Shown here: one piece after another, positions 8,192 to 20,187 of the stretch | Layout of the letters: every line of letters begins with the position of its first letter | How positions within the stretch are numbered: position 1 is the first letter of the stretch | Virus record (IMG/VR): IMGVR_UViG_3300021960_000652 | Location: 1-20,778 of that record | Direction: 5' to 3' (one strand) | DNA length: 20,778 bases | Origin: a virus | Notes under the pieces: model-generated | Databases searched by the model: none | Seen by the model: only the letters and a program-made list of their open reading frames with translations | Told to the model about the DNA's origin: nothing | Made by a program: the position numbers and the translations under genes

Positions 8192-8871
8192 ATGAAATGA
8201 TGGCAGGAGATGGATCTGGTCTTTCTCTACCACCTGCTTTTGTTATGGTAAATCCCAGGCAACATCGTAGATATAAGAAGGGTAATCAGGATAAAGTCGA
8301 TGGTCGAACCAAAGGCGCTCGTGCTCTCTTTAACCGTATTCAACGTAGAAAAATGAAAGAAGAATTAGAAACAATCGTATCTGAGGCTGTCTCGTCTGAG
8401 ACTGAGAGAGCACAGAAACAAATCGCTCAACAGAAGAAACTGGGTCGCCAGAAAGATCTTCAGAAGAAGCGTGATGAAGCGAAGCAAAAAATGCAACGCA
8501 AGACAAAAGAAATGGATACTCTTATGAAGGCGCGTCTTTCTGACTTCAAGAGAAAAGCATCCGATCAAACAAAGAAATTGAAAAAGGAAGATAATGAAAT
8601 GACTGGTGAAATTATGAATGAAAATGCTGATGTAATCCAAGTTGCTCTCGATGTAGCAACTTCTGAACTCAATCCAAACGGCGAAGGTTCATTCGCAAAG
8701 ATTCAGTTCTCTGATGGTTCTCAACAGAACCTAGACAACTTCTCAGCAAAGCGTATTGCTGCTTGTTATGCACAGCTAGATGATACACACAAGCAGCAGT
8801 TCCAGTATATGCTGAACAAGGATGCTTCAACCTATCAATCTGCTCTAGACTTTGCTATCCGCAACGTTTGA
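8164..8871 (+). CDS. Highly charged coiled-coil protein, possibly scaffold or assembly related
   Basis: 235 residues. After a short Pro/Ser segment (LSLPPAFVMVNPRQHRRYKKG) there is a long Lys/Glu/Gln-rich helix at about 50-145, predicted by eye to be a coiled coil (repeats such as KKLGRQKDLQKKRDEAKQK). A compact C-terminal module follows (about 155-235) containing FSDGSQQNLDNFSAKRIAA and FQYMLNKDASTYQSAL. The coiled-coil plus charged composition resembles phage scaffold and tape-like accessory proteins, but nothing proves that here. It overlaps the preceding gene by 28 bases; the ATG at 8164 follows ACGAAGA, a weak ribosome binding site. Confidence 0.8.
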   Translation: MSEKSESNLNEMMAGDGSGLSLPPAFVMVNPRQHRRYKKGNQDKVDGRTKGARALFNRIQRRKMKEELETIVSEAVSSETERAQKQIAQQKKLGRQKDLQKKRDEAKQKMQRKTKEMDTLMKARLSDFKRKASDQTKKLKKEDNEMTGEIMNENADVIQVALDVATSELNPNGEGSFAKIQFSDGSQQNLDNFSAKRIAACYAQLDDTHKQQFQYMLNKDASTYQSALDFAIRNV

Positions 8872-8882
8872 TAAGAGGAGTC

Positions 8883-9311
8883 ATGCCATTCGGTCTTCAG
8901 AAGTTAGCCGTTTTAGAAAGCAAACTTGACATTTATGAAGATCTCTCTAAGGAGATGCTTGACAAACTTGAGCGAGCAGTTGCTACAATCTCAGAGAACA
9001 GCAATAGAGTTGCTGTAATTCTTGAGCGCCATGAAAATAGATTGAATGAAAGTGATAAGAACGATCAACTGATTATTAAAATGCTTGAGGATGTCAAGAC
9101 TGCCAATAGTAAAGAACACAAAGCAGTTATCGAAAGACTTGACAAAGTTGAGAACCGAGTGAATGATCTCGCTACTTTCAGATGGATTGCTACTGGTATC
9201 GGGTCTGCCGCAGTCATCGTAATCGGGTCTGCGGCATTCTTTGGTAATCTCTTGACAGTCGGCACTGGCGGTGCTACTATGGGAGGTAGTCAGCCAGCGC
9301 AGATTAGGTGA
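8883..9311 (+). CDS. Coiled-coil protein with one C-terminal membrane segment
   Basis: 142 residues from ATG 8883, with GGAG only two bases upstream; the in-frame TTG at 8868 lies inside the preceding gene and is less likely. Residues 7-98 form heptad-like helices (ERLDKVENRVNDL). Residues 101-125 are one hydrophobic segment (IATGIGSAAVIVIGSAAFFG), followed by a Gly-rich end. The layout of coiled coil plus C-terminal anchor is like XhlA-type lysis accessory proteins and other small phage membrane proteins, but similarity is architectural only. The stop overlaps the primase start as GTGA. Confidence 0.82.
   Translation: MPFGLQKLAVLESKLDIYEDLSKEMLDKLERAVATISENSNRVAVILERHENRLNESDKNDQLIIKMLEDVKTANSKEHKAVIERLDKVENRVNDLATFRWIATGIGSAAVIVIGSAAFFGNLLTVGTGGATMGGSQPAQIR
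9252..9280 (+). promoter_or_regulatory. Candidate sigma70-type promoter before the primase gene
   Basis: TTGACA (9252-9257), a 17-base spacer and TACTAT (9275-9280; 4 of 6 for -10) lie 28 bases before GTG 9308. It would let host-type polymerase transcribe primase, nrdA and nrdB early. It is inside the coding region of the membrane protein, so chance cannot be excluded. Confidence 0.4.
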
Positions 9312-14206: not shown

Positions 14207-14551
14207 ATGCGTCCGCAGTCAGCAAAAGCAAAGGGTCGTCGTCTGCAACAGTGGGTCAGAGAGAAACTCATTGAGGCATTAGACATTCACCCAGAAGACA
14301 TTGAAAGTAGATCTATGGGAGCAGGTGGTGAGGATCTCATCATGGCTCGTGCTGCCAGATCTAAATTTCCACACAGCATTGAATGTAAGAATGTTGAAAA
14401 ACTAAATATCTGGGACGCATATGAACAGGCGTCTGCCAATTGTGGTGATTATGAACCTCTCGTAATTATGAAAAAGAATGGTAAGAAACCATTGGCAGTA
14501 ATAGATGCAGAATATTTCATAAGTTTATACGGAGACAACAATGGAAATTGA
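14207..14551 (+). CDS. PD-(D/E)XK-type small endonuclease
   Basis: 114 residues. GAGGEDLIM gives the catalytic D43 and SIECKN gives E59-x-K61, the paired motifs of the PD-(D/E)XK fold used by Holliday-junction resolvases and restriction-type nucleases. VREKLIEAL upstream supplies the N-terminal helix with its glutamate. The small size fits a dimeric resolvase-like enzyme; the precise substrate is not known. AAGGAGGT at 14191-14198 is an unusually strong ribosome site and can be masked by a hairpin in transcripts coming from upstream. The 3' end overlaps the peptidase gene by 11 bases. Confidence 0.8.
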   Translation: MRPQSAKAKGRRLQQWVREKLIEALDIHPEDIESRSMGAGGEDLIMARAARSKFPHSIECKNVEKLNIWDAYEQASANCGDYEPLVIMKKNGKKPLAVIDAEYFISLYGDNNGN

Positions 14552-15245
14552 TCTACACAATTTTTTCAGATTTTACAAGCACGAGAATCCCCAACACGTC
14601 GCTGCCGTTCAGTGGCTAGAGGATAATCTTCCAAAAGAATACCTTGACGATAACTCAGAATGGGTTAAACTGTTTAGGAAACCAGGACCAGCAGGCGCTG
14701 CTGGAATTACTAACCCACTCAAGGTTCCTTACTACCCACAGACAGACAATTACACCAACGCTGAGCGTACCTGTAATTCATCTTCCTGTGCTATGTGCCT
14801 AGAGTATTTCAAGCCTGGCACACTACCCGCAGGACCAAAAGGTGATGATGCTTATGTCAAGGAAGTATTCAAGATTGGCGACACTACTGACCACGCCGTT
14901 CAGACGAAAGTTCTGGAGAAGTTTGGCGTCAAGTCCTCTTTCTCCTACAATCTATCCTTTGCTGATCTTGACAAGCAGCTTGCTGCTGGTAAGCCCGTGG
15001 TTATCGGTATTCTCCACAGGGGTCCTATTTCTGCTCCTCGTGGCGGTCACATGTGTGTAGTCATCGGCAAGAAGGGTGAAGATTATATCGTCAATGATCC
15101 TTATGGCGATCTCAACGATGGTTATTCTTCAGATGTTATGAACGGTAAGGGTGCTGTTTATAAGAAGTCGGAACTGAAATCCCGTTGGTGCCCTGCTGGC
15201 AACGATGGTTGGGGTCGTATCTTCTCTCAAGAACTCCCAAAGTAG
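14541..15245 (+). CDS. C39-like papain-fold cysteine peptidase, 0-frame product
   Basis: 234 residues. The peptidase part has YYPQTDN (Q67, oxyanion), ERTCNSSSCAM with the probable catalytic C78, RGGHMCVVIG with H170, and YIVNDPYGD with D187, the order found in C39-type bacteriolytic peptidases. Such domains cleave peptides, and in phage proteins often the peptidoglycan cross-bridge. There is no signal peptide. GGAG at 14530-14533 is the ribosome site for ATG 14541. The 0-frame stops at TAG 15243 immediately after the heptamer C CCA AAG. The -1 frame leads into a linker and a lysozyme domain, so the fuller product may be a 417-residue fusion. Confidence 0.85.
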   Translation: MEIDLHNFFRFYKHENPQHVAAVQWLEDNLPKEYLDDNSEWVKLFRKPGPAGAAGITNPLKVPYYPQTDNYTNAERTCNSSSCAMCLEYFKPGTLPAGPKGDDAYVKEVFKIGDTTDHAVQTKVLEKFGVKSSFSYNLSFADLDKQLAAGKPVVIGILHRGPISAPRGGHMCVVIGKKGEDYIVNDPYGDLNDGYSSDVMNGKGAVYKKSELKSRWCPAGNDGWGRIFSQELPK

Positions 15246-15274
15246 CAAGCGGCAGTGCTCCTGCTGCTGCCGCT
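15236..15274 (+). promoter_or_regulatory. Candidate programmed -1 ribosomal frameshift signal
   Basis: The slippery heptamer CCCAAAG (15236-15242) is in the correct phase, read C CCA AAG in the 0-frame, and is followed at once by TAG. After five bases an 8-bp stem begins: AGCGGCAG (15248-15255) with CTGCCGCT (15267-15274) and an 11-base loop. Slip by -1 gives CCC AAA GTA GCA and enters the frame of the lysozyme domain. Efficiency cannot be judged by eye. Confidence 0.6.
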
Positions 15275-15793
15275 GAACCATCTGCTCCTGCCCCTGCCTG
15301 GGGTGGTGGGGCATCCAACACTCCACCAGACGAGGTTCCACCTGTCGGATTGAAGATTATCAAACAATTTGAAGGTTGTCATTTGGAGGCTTACCCTGAC
15401 CCTCTTTCAGGGGGACCCCCAATCACAATCGGATGGGGGTCCACAAGAGACAAAAACGGAAACCCATTCAAATTGGGAGACAAGATTAGCCAAGATGAGG
15501 CAGACTCCTTACTCATGGACCAATGCCGTAAGCAATTTATACCTTCGCTGCGTAAGATTCCATTTTGGGACGAAATGAGCGACGGACAGAGAGGTGCTCT
15601 TCTCAGTTTTGCTTATAATCTTGGTGCTGGATTCTACGGAGGTAGTAATTTCAACACCATTACCAAGAGATTGAAGAACAAAGAATGGGATCAAGTCCCA
15701 GAAGCACTGTTCCTCTATCGTAATCCTGGTAGTCATGTAGAGGCTGGTCTCGCTAAACGTCGTAAGGCAGAAGGCGAACTTTGGAAGTCGTAA
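15242..15793 (+). CDS. GH24 (T4-type) lysozyme domain in the -1 frame, no ATG start
   Basis: About 183 residues after the proposed shift. An Ala/Pro/Gly linker (VASGSAPAAAAEPSAPAPAW and onward to VPPVG) leads to a lysozyme domain: IIKQFEGCHLEAYPDPL, then ITIGWGSTRD. The glutamate and aspartate are nine residues apart as in T4 lysozyme (E11, D20), and the TIG threonine supplies the third residue; in fusion numbering they are E278, D287 and T296. GQRGALLSFAYNLGAGFYGG is the typical second half. The enzyme cuts the glycan strand of peptidoglycan. The only in-frame starts upstream are TTG 15185 and GTG 15188, without a convincing ribosome site. A linker with no start of its own argues for fusion to the peptidase by frameshift; a base error in the sequence is the alternative. 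Confidence 0.82.
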   Translation, partial: VASGSAPAAAAEPSAPAPAWGGGASNTPPDEVPPVGLKIIKQFEGCHLEAYPDPLSGGPPITIGWGSTRDKNGNPFKLGDKISQDEADSLLMDQCRKQFIPSLRKIPFWDEMSDGQRGALLSFAYNLGAGFYGGSNFNTITKRLKNKEWDQVPEALFLYRNPGSHVEAGLAKRRKAEGELWKS

Positions 15794-15898: not shown

Positions 15899-17815
15899 AT
15901 GTCTAGAAATATTAATAGGACGCTAGCTGCAGCGTCCGCACTTTTACTTGGTGTGCCTACAGCAGCACAAGCACATACTAACGCCATTGGTTATGTTGGG
16001 GATGGAACTGGTGGAGTAACATTCTGGTATGGAACCTATCACGTTGGTACGCAGTTTAATGAAGCTGAGTTAAAACTTGAAGGTGCCAACGGTACAAGTT
16101 ATACAACAACTATTAATCAGTTTAACCTGCTTGAACAAACTCTTCCAGCAGGACTTGATCCAAACTCAAACTATTTCACTACTGACGGAACACAACTTGT
16201 TCCTTATGATGCTAGTATCGCTCCTGCTGGCGGTACTTATACTTGGCAAGGTTTCAATGTCGTCGGTCTTTCTGCTGGTGACTATACCTTCACTTATATC
16301 CCATTGGGTGATGCTGAATCTTATGATCCAACTGGAACTCCAACGATGGAGTGGGCTCCAATAGATAACGTTATTCGTACTTATACTGTAAGTCTTTCTG
16401 CTGGTCTTATTTCTGGTGATGCTAACCAGAATGGAATTCTTGACATCTATGAGTTTGGTACAGTAACCACACCACCACCATCAACTCCATCAACTCCATC
16501 AGCACCCACATTAGTATCTTCTGCTGCTGGAACTCCTATTGTTACCACTAGCAGCACCACACAAGATCGTTATGTTTTTGATACTGCTGGTGACACTAGA
16601 ACTTACTACCAGGATACAGTTACTACAACAACTACCACACCTACAACGGTAGATACTTATAGTGATGGTTCAACTGTAACTACCAACGGCACTCCTACAA
16701 CCTCTACAACAACCACACAGGCAACGGTTCCTGTATGGGTAGAGACCAGAACCTATGACGTTCAAAGAAGTGCTTACACTCCTTCTGGTGCTGCTCCTAC
16801 GATTGTCAATACACCAGCATGGTCTAAGTCTGAGAGTGACGGACAACAGAGAGTTGATCTTCATGTAACCACAGGTGTCACTACACCAACGGTCAGAACT
16901 GTCACAACAACAGCAGTATATACCAAAGTCTATACCGATGGATCGCCAGACACCACAACATCAGATCCTTCTGTTGTTACCTATGAGACCAGCACAGCAT
17001 ATGCTGAGAGACATACTTATAAGAACTGGTCTGGTAGAATTGATCAGCTTGAGACACTTGACAAGGTGAGTGTTGCTAACAATCGTCTTCTCAATCACCT
17101 ACCATCCAAAACAAAACAAAGATTTAGGATCTTTGAAACTAATAGAATGATGAATTCATATAACAATAATGGATATGAAGCATTCTCTACTACATTTGGT
17201 GGTGGATTTGAGTATGACCTAAGCAAGGGATGGACCTTTGGTGGTCAGTATAATAAGTTATACACAGAACTCAAGGGATCTGATAGCATTTCACATGTAA
17301 ATAGAGATCACTTTGGTGTATTCAACAGCTTCCATGGTAAGTCACTATCTCTTATCACAAATGCTGGATTGTCTAAGGACAAGTATGACTATGCCAGAAC
17401 ACTTGAGTATCAGTTTGGTAACTGGGGCAAGGTAGAAGGTCAGCAATGGTGGGTTAATAATAGATTGTATGCTCATCTTGGTCGTAGCATTCACCCATTC
17501 ATCGGTCACACAGTTCATAACGTAACCAGAGACGGATACGCCGAGACTGGATCACCACAATCAGCAAGATCTGTTGCTGCATATGACAAGACAACTCATG
17601 TTGGTGAAGCAGGACTTAGAGTGGAAACAAGATTTGGTGGTAAGAAAGGTGACCTTATTGGTATGAGTGTTGAAGGTTCTTATGCTACCGACAATTCCTA
17701 TGATGTCATTGCTGCTGTAGATCTGAATCAGGTCATCTATCTTGAGGGATCCCATGCTAATATAGATGGTGTCACGAATAATTCAGTTGCTGCTAAGGTC
17801 AAATTCAGGTTCTAA
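15899..17815 (+). CDS. Exported protein with autotransporter-like C-terminal beta-barrel
   Basis: 638 residues. A Sec signal peptide is clear: basic start, hydrophobic ALLLG core and cleavage after A25 (PTAAQA, then HTNAIG). Residues 26-175 form a beta-rich domain (VTFWYGTYHVGTQF). GDANQNGILDIYEFG (about 181-195) is a calcium-loop-like element. A Thr/Pro/Ser-rich region of about 200 residues follows. From about 405 to the end the pattern is alternating strands with Gly and aromatic residues (FGGGFEYDLSKGWTFGGQY, then GEAGLRVETRF), finishing in AAKVKFRF with a terminal phenylalanine as in outer-membrane barrels. The barrel part is about 230 residues, near the size of autotransporter barrels. 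It would be placed in the outer membrane of the infected cell. Function unknown; host surface alteration or lysis are guesses. Confidence 0.85.
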   Translation: MSRNINRTLAAASALLLGVPTAAQAHTNAIGYVGDGTGGVTFWYGTYHVGTQFNEAELKLEGANGTSYTTTINQFNLLEQTLPAGLDPNSNYFTTDGTQLVPYDASIAPAGGTYTWQGFNVVGLSAGDYTFTYIPLGDAESYDPTGTPTMEWAPIDNVIRTYTVSLSAGLISGDANQNGILDIYEFGTVTTPPPSTPSTPSAPTLVSSAAGTPIVTTSSTTQDRYVFDTAGDTRTYYQDTVTTTTTTPTTVDTYSDGSTVTTNGTPTTSTTTTQATVPVWVETRTYDVQRSAYTPSGAAPTIVNTPAWSKSESDGQQRVDLHVTTGVTTPTVRTVTTTAVYTKVYTDGSPDTTTSDPSVVTYETSTAYAERHTYKNWSGRIDQLETLDKVSVANNRLLNHLPSKTKQRFRIFETNRMMNSYNNNGYEAFSTTFGGGFEYDLSKGWTFGGQYNKLYTELKGSDSISHVNRDHFGVFNSFHGKSLSLITNAGLSKDKYDYARTLEYQFGNWGKVEGQQWWVNNRLYAHLGRSIHPFIGHTVHNVTRDGYAETGSPQSARSVAAYDKTTHVGEAGLRVETRFGGKKGDLIGMSVEGSYATDNSYDVIAAVDLNQVIYLEGSHANIDGVTNNSVAAKVKFRF

Positions 17816-17974: not shown

Positions 17975-18658
17975 ATGCCGAACACATTTACATTTGTAGC
18001 AGTTTCTCTTTTAGGAATTGCTGCACCCACAGCGGCACACCTGCCGTTTCAGAACTATAAGATGGATGGTCCCCCACCACCAGTAATTGTTGGAAAAGAT
18101 CTTCTCCCCTCTTATAAACCATTCACTATTATTAGAGAATTCGATTCTGAAAAGACAGCGACCAAAGAGGTTGCAGAACCAAAGCCCAAAGAGAAGAGGC
18201 TTATTTGTAAAGGGTGTACAGAAAACGAGAACCAAGCTCTTGCATTCTTGCAAGACGAGGGGATCAAAGACAGAAACGCCCTTGCTACTATCATGGGCAA
18301 TATCAAGCAGGAAAGTAATTTCCATGCTAATATTTGCGAAGGTGGTAGCAGGATCACATACAATGCCTGCCGTTGGGGTGGGTATGGTTTGATCCAATGG
18401 ACATCTGCCAATCGTTATCATGGACTGGGTGATTTTGCTAGGAAGTATGGTGGTAATGCATCATCACTTCAGACGCAACTTCGTTATATGACGAATGAAG
18501 TTCAGTGGAAACAAATTGAAACCAGACTTAAAACACCTGGACGTTCAATTTATTCCTACATGAACGATGCGTATAGTTGGATTGGTTGGGGCATTCATGG
18601 TGCTCGTACACATTATGCACATGATTATGCGAACCGACTGATCACGGTAGAGGTTTAA
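17975..18658 (+). CDS. Exported tail-lysozyme-type muralytic protein
   Basis: 227 residues. A hydrophobic N-terminal segment with an Ala-x-Ala-like end (VSLLGIAAPTAAH) looks like a signal peptide, although it lacks early basic residues. A Pro-rich and charged linker with CKGC (C78, C81) follows. From about residue 83 (NENQALAFLQDEGIKDRNAL) comes a lysozyme-like domain of the phage tail-lysozyme type: IMGNIKQESNF with the probable catalytic E113, GGYGLIQWTSANRYHGL and a helical end. C121 and C132 could form a disulfide, in keeping with export. It would cut peptidoglycan from the periplasmic side. Its position next to the barrel protein and the C39/lysozyme gene suggests a common envelope role. 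Confidence 0.82.
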   Translation: MPNTFTFVAVSLLGIAAPTAAHLPFQNYKMDGPPPPVIVGKDLLPSYKPFTIIREFDSEKTATKEVAEPKPKEKRLICKGCTENENQALAFLQDEGIKDRNALATIMGNIKQESNFHANICEGGSRITYNACRWGGYGLIQWTSANRYHGLGDFARKYGGNASSLQTQLRYMTNEVQWKQIETRLKTPGRSIYSYMNDAYSWIGWGIHGARTHYAHDYANRLITVEV

Positions 18659-19123: not shown

Positions 19124-19200
19124 GTTTCAGTAGCTCAGTGGAACAGAGCAACCGCCTTCTAAGCGGTCGGTCGTTGGTTCGAATCCAACCTGAAACGCCA
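19124..19200 (+). tRNA. tRNA-Arg (anticodon UCU), CCA encoded
   Basis: Acceptor GTTTCAG (19124-19130) pairs with CTGAAAC (19190-19196). The anticodon loop CTTCTAA gives UCU, reading AGA/AGG. The T arm is GTTGG-TTCGAAT-CCAAC. G19197 is the discriminator and CCA 19198-19200 is encoded, unlike the other four tRNAs here. It abuts tRNA-Leu with no spacer. Confidence 0.93.
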
Positions 19201-19283
19201 GTCGGTATGGCGGAATTGGTAGACGCGCTGGGTTTAGGTTCCAGTGTCCTTGCGACGTGGAGGTTCAAGTCCTCTTACCGACA
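19201..19283 (+). tRNA. tRNA-Leu (anticodon UAG)
   Basis: Class II tRNA with acceptor GTCGGTA/TACCGAC (19201-19207 and 19276-19282), loop TTTAGGT (anticodon UAG, codon CUA), a long variable arm and T loop TTCAAGT. Discriminator A19283; CCA not encoded. It begins the base after the CCA of tRNA-Arg, so the 5' end of one is set by the 3' end of the other. Confidence 0.93.
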
Positions 19284-19304
19284 CTCCAAATTTCTAATTG
19301 GATT

Positions 19305-19463
19305 ATGTCTTTACTTTCATCACAAGATCGTCAAATGGCGGTTGAAGCACTTGAATATTACATTCAAAAATTGAAAGATGACAACTGCAATCAAGCAGCA
19401 ATCACTTCTTTCCAGACACTTCTCAATTGGATTGAGTTGGAACAATATAAGAAGGGCGAATAG
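19305..19463 (+). CDS. Small unknown protein, 52 aa, ending inside tRNA-Val
   Basis: 52 residues from ATG 19305 ([20 protein letters not shown], then [14 protein letters not shown], ending in QYKKGE). It looks like two soluble amphipathic helices; no family recognised. The stop TAG 19461-19463 lies in tRNA-Val, so the last 10 bases are shared. An upstream in-frame ATG at 19257 falls within tRNA-Leu and is not a likely start. Confidence 0.6.
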
Positions 19464-19525
19464 CTCAGCGGTAGAGCGTCTCCTTTACACGGAGAGGGTC
19501 GGGGGTTCGATCCCCTCTTCGCCCA
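19454..19525 (+). tRNA. tRNA-Val (anticodon UAC)
   Basis: Acceptor GGGCGAA/TTCGCCC (19454-19460 and 19518-19524), D arm GCTC-AGCGGTA-GAGC, loop TTTACAC (anticodon UAC, codon GUA) and T loop TTCGATC. Discriminator A19525; CCA not encoded. The 5' end overlaps the end of the 52-aa gene by 10 bases. Confidence 0.93.
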
Positions 19526-19553
19526 TTAACTTCTAGAGGTTAAATGATTACAA

Positions 19554-19802
19554 ATGTTATCGGCAAGATGCAAAATCTGCAACACAGAACTGACAAGCAC
19601 TAGCAAAATTCAATGCTGTGGGTGTCCTAATATGATGCGAGTTGTGGATGACACCGTAGGAGCAATTGACTTGAGTGAAGTTATTTTACTCAATCATGAA
19701 AAAAAGATTAAATATCATGGAATCCTGACACAAGCTGACCTAAAATACCAAGAGGACAGGCGGAAACGCAAGGTCCGCAAACTTGACTTTGAGGAACGCT
19801 AA
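19554..19802 (+). CDS. Small zinc-ribbon-like protein
   Basis: 82 residues. CKIC (C6, C9) and CCGCPNMM (with C21, C22 and C24) make a compact zinc-ribbon-like arrangement. This is followed by an acidic/hydrophobic middle (VGAIDLSEVILLNHEKKIKY) and a very basic end (EDRRKRKVRKLDFEER). Small proteins of this form occur in T4-like cyanophages, as I recall, without a known function. A nucleic-acid-binding role is a reasonable guess. AGAGG at 19535-19539 lies 14 bases before the ATG, rather far. The stop shares one base with the next start (TAATG). Confidence 0.75.
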   Translation: MLSARCKICNTELTSTSKIQCCGCPNMMRVVDDTVGAIDLSEVILLNHEKKIKYHGILTQADLKYQEDRRKRKVRKLDFEER

Positions 19803-20038
19803 TGATTAATCTCCATCAACGCTTCAACCACTACTTAAATACTAACAAAACTACAGACTTACAGGATGTACATGAGCGTATTATAAGTTATGGTTGGCGT
19901 GATGACGGAAGAGAACTCACTGGTTATTATGTCTTGACAGAAAACTATGAGATCGTGTATAATCTCAAAGATGAATTCCAATTCAAAAACTTAAGGAAAG
20001 GTGGTCGAGTGGTTGAAGGCTCTAGTCTTGAAAACTAG
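19802..20038 (+). CDS. Unknown protein, 78 aa, with 3' end inside tRNA-Ser
   Basis: 78 residues: MINLHQRFNHYLNTNKTTDL, a helical middle, then WRDDGRELTGYYVLTENYEI and VYNLKDEFQF. The last 14 residues (RKGGRVVEGSSLEN) are encoded by bases of tRNA-Ser and its stop TAG lies in the anticodon stem, so this tail is probably not under its own selection. It is coupled to the zinc-ribbon gene by TAATG. A perfect sigma70 promoter lies inside it. No family recognised. Confidence 0.65.
   Translation: MINLHQRFNHYLNTNKTTDLQDVHERIISYGWRDDGRELTGYYVLTENYEIVYNLKDEFQFKNLRKGGRVVEGSSLEN
19934..19963 (+). promoter_or_regulatory. Perfect-hexamer sigma70 promoter for tRNA-Ser and tRNA-Pro
   Basis: TTGACA (19934-19939), 18 bases, TATAAT (19958-19963). 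Start expected near 19970, about 25 bases before tRNA-Ser. It is inside the 78-aa gene. Confidence 0.72.
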
Positions 20039-20079
20039 CGATGTGAAAGCATCCGTGGGTTCGAATCCCACCCTTTCCG
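19995..20079 (+). tRNA. tRNA-Ser (anticodon UGA)
   Basis: Class II tRNA with acceptor GGAAAGG/CCTTTCC (19995-20001 and 20072-20078), anticodon stem CTAGT/ACTAG with loop CTTGAAA (UGA, codon UCA), a long variable arm and T loop TTCGAAT. Discriminator G20079; CCA not encoded. Its first 44 bases are also read as the end of the 78-aa gene. Confidence 0.93.
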
Positions 20080-20082
20080 CTT

Positions 20083-20156
20083 CGGAATGTAGCTCAGTTT
20101 GGTAGAGCACTCGCTTTGGGAGCGAGATGTCGCAGGTTCGAATCCTGTCATTCCGA
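20083..20156 (+). tRNA. tRNA-Pro (anticodon UGG)
   Basis: Acceptor CGGAATG/CATTCCG (20083-20089 and 20149-20155), starting with C as usual for tRNA-Pro. Anticodon stem CTCGC/GCGAG with loop TTTGGGA (UGG, codon CCA); T loop TTCGAAT. Discriminator A20156; CCA not encoded. It follows tRNA-Ser after three bases. Confidence 0.93.
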
Positions 20157-20187
20157 TTGTGAAATATATATTATTTTCCAACTAACT

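Follow-up and report, generated by a model that had tools for sequence, protein, structure and literature searches.

A probable programmed -1 ribosomal frameshift between a C39-like peptidase and a GH24 lysozyme in T4-like cyanophages

The peptidase-lysozyme locus

The window (the whole analysed stretch of 20,778 nucleotides, IMG/VR record IMGVR_UViG_3300021960_000652) is T4-like cyanophage DNA, with Kyanoviridae as its nearest named relatives, e.g., S-PM2, S-SRM01, and DSL-LC02/03. Its features are collected in Table 1. The zero-frame open reading frame (ORF) matches the Peptidase_C39_2 profile with 53.2 bits (cut-off 24), and the phage lysozyme GH24 profile is matched with 80.2 bits (cut-off 22.3). 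The catalytic residues of the peptidase are presumed, from motif position, to be Cys78, His170, and Asp186; the Cys, His, and Asp columns are invariant in alignment A3. In the AlphaFold model of a relative's in-frame fusion (pLDDT 74, pTM 0.52), the lysozyme is good, the surroundings of the C39 active site are poor, and the N-terminal module is uninformative; Foldseek matches the modelled relative to phage lysozymes and endolysins, including 9kbq and 2anv, and weak C39/papain-like matches of the modelled fusion are also seen.

Table 1. Features of the window and of the ACG-2014f loci (window positions unless a locus is named)
Feature	Position	Strand	Remarks
DUF7201 coiled-coil protein	8868-9311		Hydrophobic C-terminal segment
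Zero-frame ORF	14541-15245	+	234 aa; N-terminal module and C39-like peptidase; stop TAG
N-terminal 'LHNFF' helical module	14541-14678	+	aa 1-46
C39-like peptidase domain	aa 60-188 of the 234-aa ORF	+	Pfam PF13529
Slippery heptamer C CCA AAG	15236-15242	+	Zero-frame X XXY YYZ phase
Zero-frame stop TAG	15243-15245	+	Abuts the heptamer
-1 frame linker, Ala/Pro/Gly-rich	15242-15337	+	VASGSAPAAAAEPSAPAPAWGGGASNTPPDEV
Stem-loop, putative stimulator	15248-15274	+	15248-15257 with 15265-15274; 8 Watson-Crick and 2 G-U pairs
GH24 phage lysozyme domain, -1 frame	15338-15793	+	PF00959; TAA 15791-15793
638-aa protein	15899-17815		Ahead of the PF18013 gene; signal-like start; possible outer-membrane barrel
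Phage tail lysozyme, second muralytic gene	17975-18658		PF18013; signal-peptide-like start
Phage tRNA-Pro, anticodon UGG	20082-20157	+	Decodes CCA, the slip-site codon in the P site
ACG-2014f fusions with A AAA AAG and hairpin	L006:2214-2220, L171:3214, L172:3214, L173:2568		

The C39 ORF ends with CTC CCA AAG TAG, so that, as in programmed -1 frameshifting, the heptamer stands in zero-frame phase, before the stop and within the overlap of the two frames; direct reading thus agrees with the sequence-only reading, which had placed CCCAAAG in the correct phase at the end of the peptidase gene. The spacer of 5 nt (15243-15247) lies within the distance of about 5-9 nt typical of a 3' structure. 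The 8-bp stem described earlier is confirmed as a core of AGCGGCAG and CTGCCGCT, pairing 15248-15255 with 15267-15274, and can be extended to 10 bp by two G-U pairs; its folding has z = -2.3 against synonymous shuffles. From 15242 the -1 frame stays open until the TAA at 15791-15793, for a predicted fusion of 417 aa, and both this and the PF00959 match uphold the claim that it encodes a linker and a full GH24 domain. The domain was also said to lack an ATG of its own. Indeed, the window has no ATG in the lysozyme frame ahead of the domain, the in-frame candidates being TTG 15185, GTG 15188, TTG 15209, and TTG 15350, none of them conserved; in L015, of the same clade, the sole pre-domain start codon is a GTG at the domain boundary.

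Five phage tRNAs are encoded at 19124-20157; one of them, tRNA-Pro(UGG), is a possible helper of the slip at CCA. The DUF7201 protein is possibly membrane-anchored.

Heptamer and stem in related phages

Four viral-contig scans with C39 proteins, together with reference phages, yielded 157 distinct loci in 117 clusters at 90% nucleotide identity; the scanned loci are the nearest relatives of the queries, hence the counts hold within this sample and not as natural frequencies. Loci were classed by frames and start codons alone, the heptamer playing no part. A nearby out-of-frame lysozyme is found in the -1 frame in 97 loci, versus one in the +1 frame, the latter being a separate gene. An in-phase heptamer at the C39 end is present in all 76 loci (55/55 clusters) that have a -1-frame lysozyme lacking an overlap start (A AAA AAG in 65, C CCA AAG in eight, and U UUU UUU in three), but is missing from all 39 C39 genes that no lysozyme follows; AAAAAAG is absent in phase from the C39 gene bodies of the sample. 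The stop directly follows the heptamer at most of the 76 start-less junctions and otherwise lies 1-2 codons further on. Two lysozyme-led scans, adding loci outside the first sample, gave 13 new start-less C39-lysozyme junctions, all 13 with the heptamer; the heptamer-less C39 ends seen there are accompanied by separate lysozyme genes with their own starts, by overlap starts, or by the GGGAAAG genes described below.

The codons at the slip site are constrained as well. In the 47 A AAA AAG clusters the terminal Lys pair is always AAA AAG, while KK pairs in the gene bodies use all four combinations (p about 1e-30 from codon usage, with clusters treated as independent), and the preceding codon ends in A in all 47. 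The slip-site residues vary (KK, PK, FF), yet slipperiness persists. Hence, the slip signal is conserved in relatives beyond the needs of the protein sequence, as seen from the 76/76 versus 0/39 contrast, the codon constraint, and the 13 added junctions.

Folding downstream of the heptamer follows the same division. Start-less loci have a mean z of -2.15 against synonymous shuffles, with 27/55 below -2; the mean is +0.78 where the heptamer and an ATGA start coexist (n = 4), +0.14 with an ATGA start alone (n = 8), and intermediate, -1.04, in in-frame fusions without the heptamer (n = 12). The difference between start-less and all heptamer-less loci has p = 2e-6. In A AAA AAG loci the 3' arm of the stem usually falls on the codons that immediately precede LIKEFEG, and three registers occur; these were chosen for best pairing, which biases the counts upward, both-side changes being less affected. 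In the largest register, where the helix can start as early as 2 nt past the heptamer, 93% of cells are paired and both-side changes occur in 8/14 pairs; none of 500 shuffles is as high, and slid versions reach 32-44%. The second register shows weaker covariation. Presence of the stem tracks whether a shift is required; the heptamer does so almost as closely.

The sequence-only reading had proposed a programmed -1 frameshift and an alignment of homologues as its check. Across dozens of phages the heptamer, the adjacent stop, and the stem are kept, and the stems covary, which, together with the presence and absence counts and the 13 new loci, supports the proposal. To that reading the analysis adds that A AAA AAG is the majority form, that separate lysozyme genes may be split at G GGA AAG, that polarity is inverted in ACG-2014f, and that an N-terminal module is shared.

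In the C39 tree, the C CCA AAG clade of the window adjoins C39-alone genes, and the S-CAM7 U UUU UUU pair sits among in-frame fusions. These positions point to several origins of the slip signal, their number not being fixed since few branches are well supported. In L077 and L101, which have no lysozyme downstream, GATGTAAAATAA stands at the C39 stop instead of GATGTAAAAAAGTAG; this end looks like a decayed slip site.

Alternative arrangements and the shared N-terminal module

Some relatives, including S-SRM01, combine the heptamer with an ATGA or GTGA start, while others have the overlap start alone; in S-CREM1 the lysozyme and C39 share one ORF in reversed order. In-frame fusions and genes with their own starts, named in the sequence-only reading as findings that would speak against it, thus do exist in relatives, but are read here as alternative states. 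Given the phages with in-frame fusions, ATGA overlaps, or separate genes, a ratio of two products is not something that all of these phages need. The in-frame fusions of L041 and L149 have A7 at the junction, against A6G plus the shift in their close relatives; gain of a single base seems to have taken the place of frameshifting here.

ACG-2014f phages have C39 and the lysozyme in one frame, yet carry A AAA AAG with a hairpin. The -1 shift there reads KKV-stop, so that shifting would truncate the fusion: a signal of like kind, but with the polarity inverted. A shift leading to a premature stop, as in dnaX-type sites, is seen in this one lineage only; the window has no such arrangement.

Separate lysozyme genes of relatives (DSL-LC02/03 and many contigs) bear their own copy of the LHNFF module. 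Some of these are themselves split: a module of 72-80 aa ends with CPHCGK(S/P)LGK, CTG/TTG GGA AAG precedes the stop, and past a stem the -1 frame encodes the lysozyme. All 23 short-module loci have G GGA AAG and the stem, representing 22 distinct cassettes (L349:1442 and 21 others) with a stem spacing of 2-6 nt, mostly 6. G GGA AAG is the heptamer of lambda G/GT. The short product lacks a catalytic domain; it consists of the LHNFF module and a CPHCGK zinc-knuckle-like tail. By-eye comparison of the window cassette CCCAAAGTAGCAAGCGGCAGTGCTCCTGCTGCTGCCGCT with the GGGAAAG-type L377 cassette GGGAAAGTAACTAGCGGCAGTGGTGCCCCTGCTGCCGCT, together with the lysozyme tree (supports 88-94, not starred), suggests that the two are related. 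In most variants the lysozyme domain stands behind the shared module, via fusion, its own copy, or the shift; in the exceptions, an ATGA start leads into a lysozyme that lacks the module, which implies that the module is not absolutely required.

Several further arrangements were observed. Past the C39 stop, L037, L047, L053, L078, and L086 have a second gene, coupled through ATGA, whose N-terminal module is similar but whose GH24 is replaced by a GH19-like domain, assigned by motif rather than profile; in MA10 (L010), C39 is apparently fused in frame to a GH19-like domain. In S-CRM01 (L009, about 1327-2000) the GH24 frame is broken in its C-terminal part, through sequence error, decay, or another recoding. 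The GenBank lysins S-PM2p154 and that of S-CAM7 (L004:2460-2678 and L007:2445-2717) are fragments of about 72-90 aa that begin past the catalytic Glu, their truncation being due to the lack of a start codon in the true lysozyme frame; PHROG 10457 (95 aa) resembles a family made up of fragments of this type.

Frameshifting, its alternatives, and known systems

We consider it very probable that the C39-lysozyme junction is a programmed -1 ribosomal frameshift, coupling the lysozyme to the upstream module at a limited dose. Most ribosomes would stop at the TAG, releasing the 234-aa module-plus-C39 peptidase; some would pause at the stem, whereupon the tRNA pair on CCA-AAG would slip back to CCC-AAA, and the slipped ribosomes would bypass the stop and produce the 417-aa module-peptidase-linker-lysozyme. 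In E. coli, C_CCA_AAG, G_GGA_AAG, and A_AAA_AAG are all prone to shifting, the first of them highly so (PMC5009743). In an incomplete Cyanobium MAG, tRNA-Lys(UUU) is the sole tRNA-Lys among 36 tRNAs (Rfam and ARAGORN). Shifting in vivo and its efficiency we infer from sequence. Since the lysozyme domain has no dependable other expression route, the fusion would be its only form, in an amount governed by the efficiency of shifting, and it is presumably a minor product where the shift is used; the purpose of the shift would be to limit this dose and to place the lysozyme behind the shared N-terminal module.

The lysozyme could, instead, be a protein of its own, translated from an internal start or by termination-reinitiation at a non-AUG codon, with an incidental heptamer. 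Overlap starts are indeed used by several relatives (14 ATGA and six GTGA/TTGA loci in the sample), and the window has upstream in-frame TTG and GTG codons as well as TTG 15350; 29/55 start-less clusters have some TTG, GTG, or ATG before the catalytic Glu, mostly unconserved. However, the other 26/55 have none of these codons between the upstream stop and that Glu, start codons are unconserved in the clade of the window, and the stem is lost where an ATGA start exists; two separate proteins are, on these grounds, decidedly unlikely. In transcriptional slippage, RNA polymerase would slip on a homopolymer and the fusion would be encoded by part of a mixed mRNA pool. Here, homopolymers are available as A6 in A AAA AAG sites and T8 in the S-CAM7 sites, and the two A7 fusions look as though one A had been gained; in contrast, the CCCAAAG site of the window and the GGGAAAG sites have identical-base runs of three at most, and the X XXY YYZ phase and the spacing to a covarying 3' stem are hallmarks of the ribosome. 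With no long homopolymer at the window site, slippage of the polymerase is very unlikely there.

A single isolated break caused by a sequencing or assembly indel, or by decay of the lysozyme gene, would look alike, and the S-CRM01 lysozyme is broken further down. This explanation is nevertheless extremely improbable: the two genome records of S-PM2 concur at the junction, as do the three S-CAM7 isolates, the junction is common to dozens of metagenome contigs, and the lysozyme is conserved across phages beyond the shift. The agreement of independently deposited isolates means that the junction is not an indel, and, with the relatives, it rules out a sequence error. The chance that a longer product arises by stop codon readthrough is negligible; UAG is common at the start-less junctions (45/55 clusters), but the zero frame past the stop in the window encodes 35 residues with no known domain before the next stop, and readthrough is ruled out by the lysozyme being in the -1 frame.

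Programmed frameshifting at this junction resembles several known systems. The E. coli dnaX gene shifts by -1 at A AAA AAG with a 3' stem (PMC5009743); the likeness extends to A AAA AAG in most relatives, the 3' stem, the sole tRNA-Lys for AAA/AAG, and the polarity of ACG-2014f, where the shift truncates the zero-frame fusion. The gene, however, is a different one, most of these phages lengthen the product by the shift, the stop abuts the heptamer, and the gained domain is an enzyme; in addition, dnaX has an upstream Shine-Dalgarno-like stimulator, while none could be established here, the G-R codons (GGNAGA) upstream in many loci being part of a GWGR motif that is also found in heptamer-less loci. 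Similar to the phage tail assembly chaperone G/GT, which uses a -1 frameshift (Xu, Hendrix and Duda 2004, cited in PMC6316719), a phage late gene gains a C-terminal extension, and the module-lysozyme genes share its G GGA AAG; here, though, the gene is no tail chaperone, the added part is a GH24 muramidase, and heptamers of several kinds interchange at the same junction. Mycobacteriophage Ms6 lysA also makes a long and a short endolysin product from one gene, the second from an embedded in-frame gene (PMC3111421), whereas in our case termination at the zero-frame stop would yield the short form, and the long one would depend on a change of frame. The PRFect paper names lysins in its account of genes with a known frameshift and cites Shearman 1994 on a Lactococcus phage (PMC10885494); that lysin, reported to involve overlapping genes, is the closest precedent for a frameshifted lysin. 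The earlier statement that no described case was known for such a muralytic enzyme therefore holds for the open-access literature searched, where no description of cyanophage or endolysin frameshifting of this kind was found, but frameshifting in a lysin, taken by itself, may have a precedent; the gene context and its recurrence appear undescribed in those open-access papers.

Many marine and freshwater cyanobacterial viruses seem to make the start-less lysozyme only by a one-letter slip-back. More broadly, we moderately favour the view that -1 frameshifting arose time and again in cyanomyoviruses, with four heptamers, in two gene contexts, and in both polarities, and that it would act as a general switch setting the amount of lysozyme relative to the shared N-terminal module, with the module or module-peptidase in excess and the muramidase as a minor fusion. 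The lysozymes of S-PM2, S-CAM7, and their relatives are currently annotated as fragments. The natural series of four heptamers, with or without a stem, in both polarities, and with escape to an ATGA overlap or an in-frame fusion, is a ready set for studying the origin, switching, and loss of frameshift signals. If true, recoding would be widespread beyond the classic examples of tail chaperones, dnaX, and insertion sequences, it would concern an enzyme that acts on the cell wall in abundant viruses infecting primary producers, and the timing or strength of lysis would hinge on the efficiency of a ribosomal shift.
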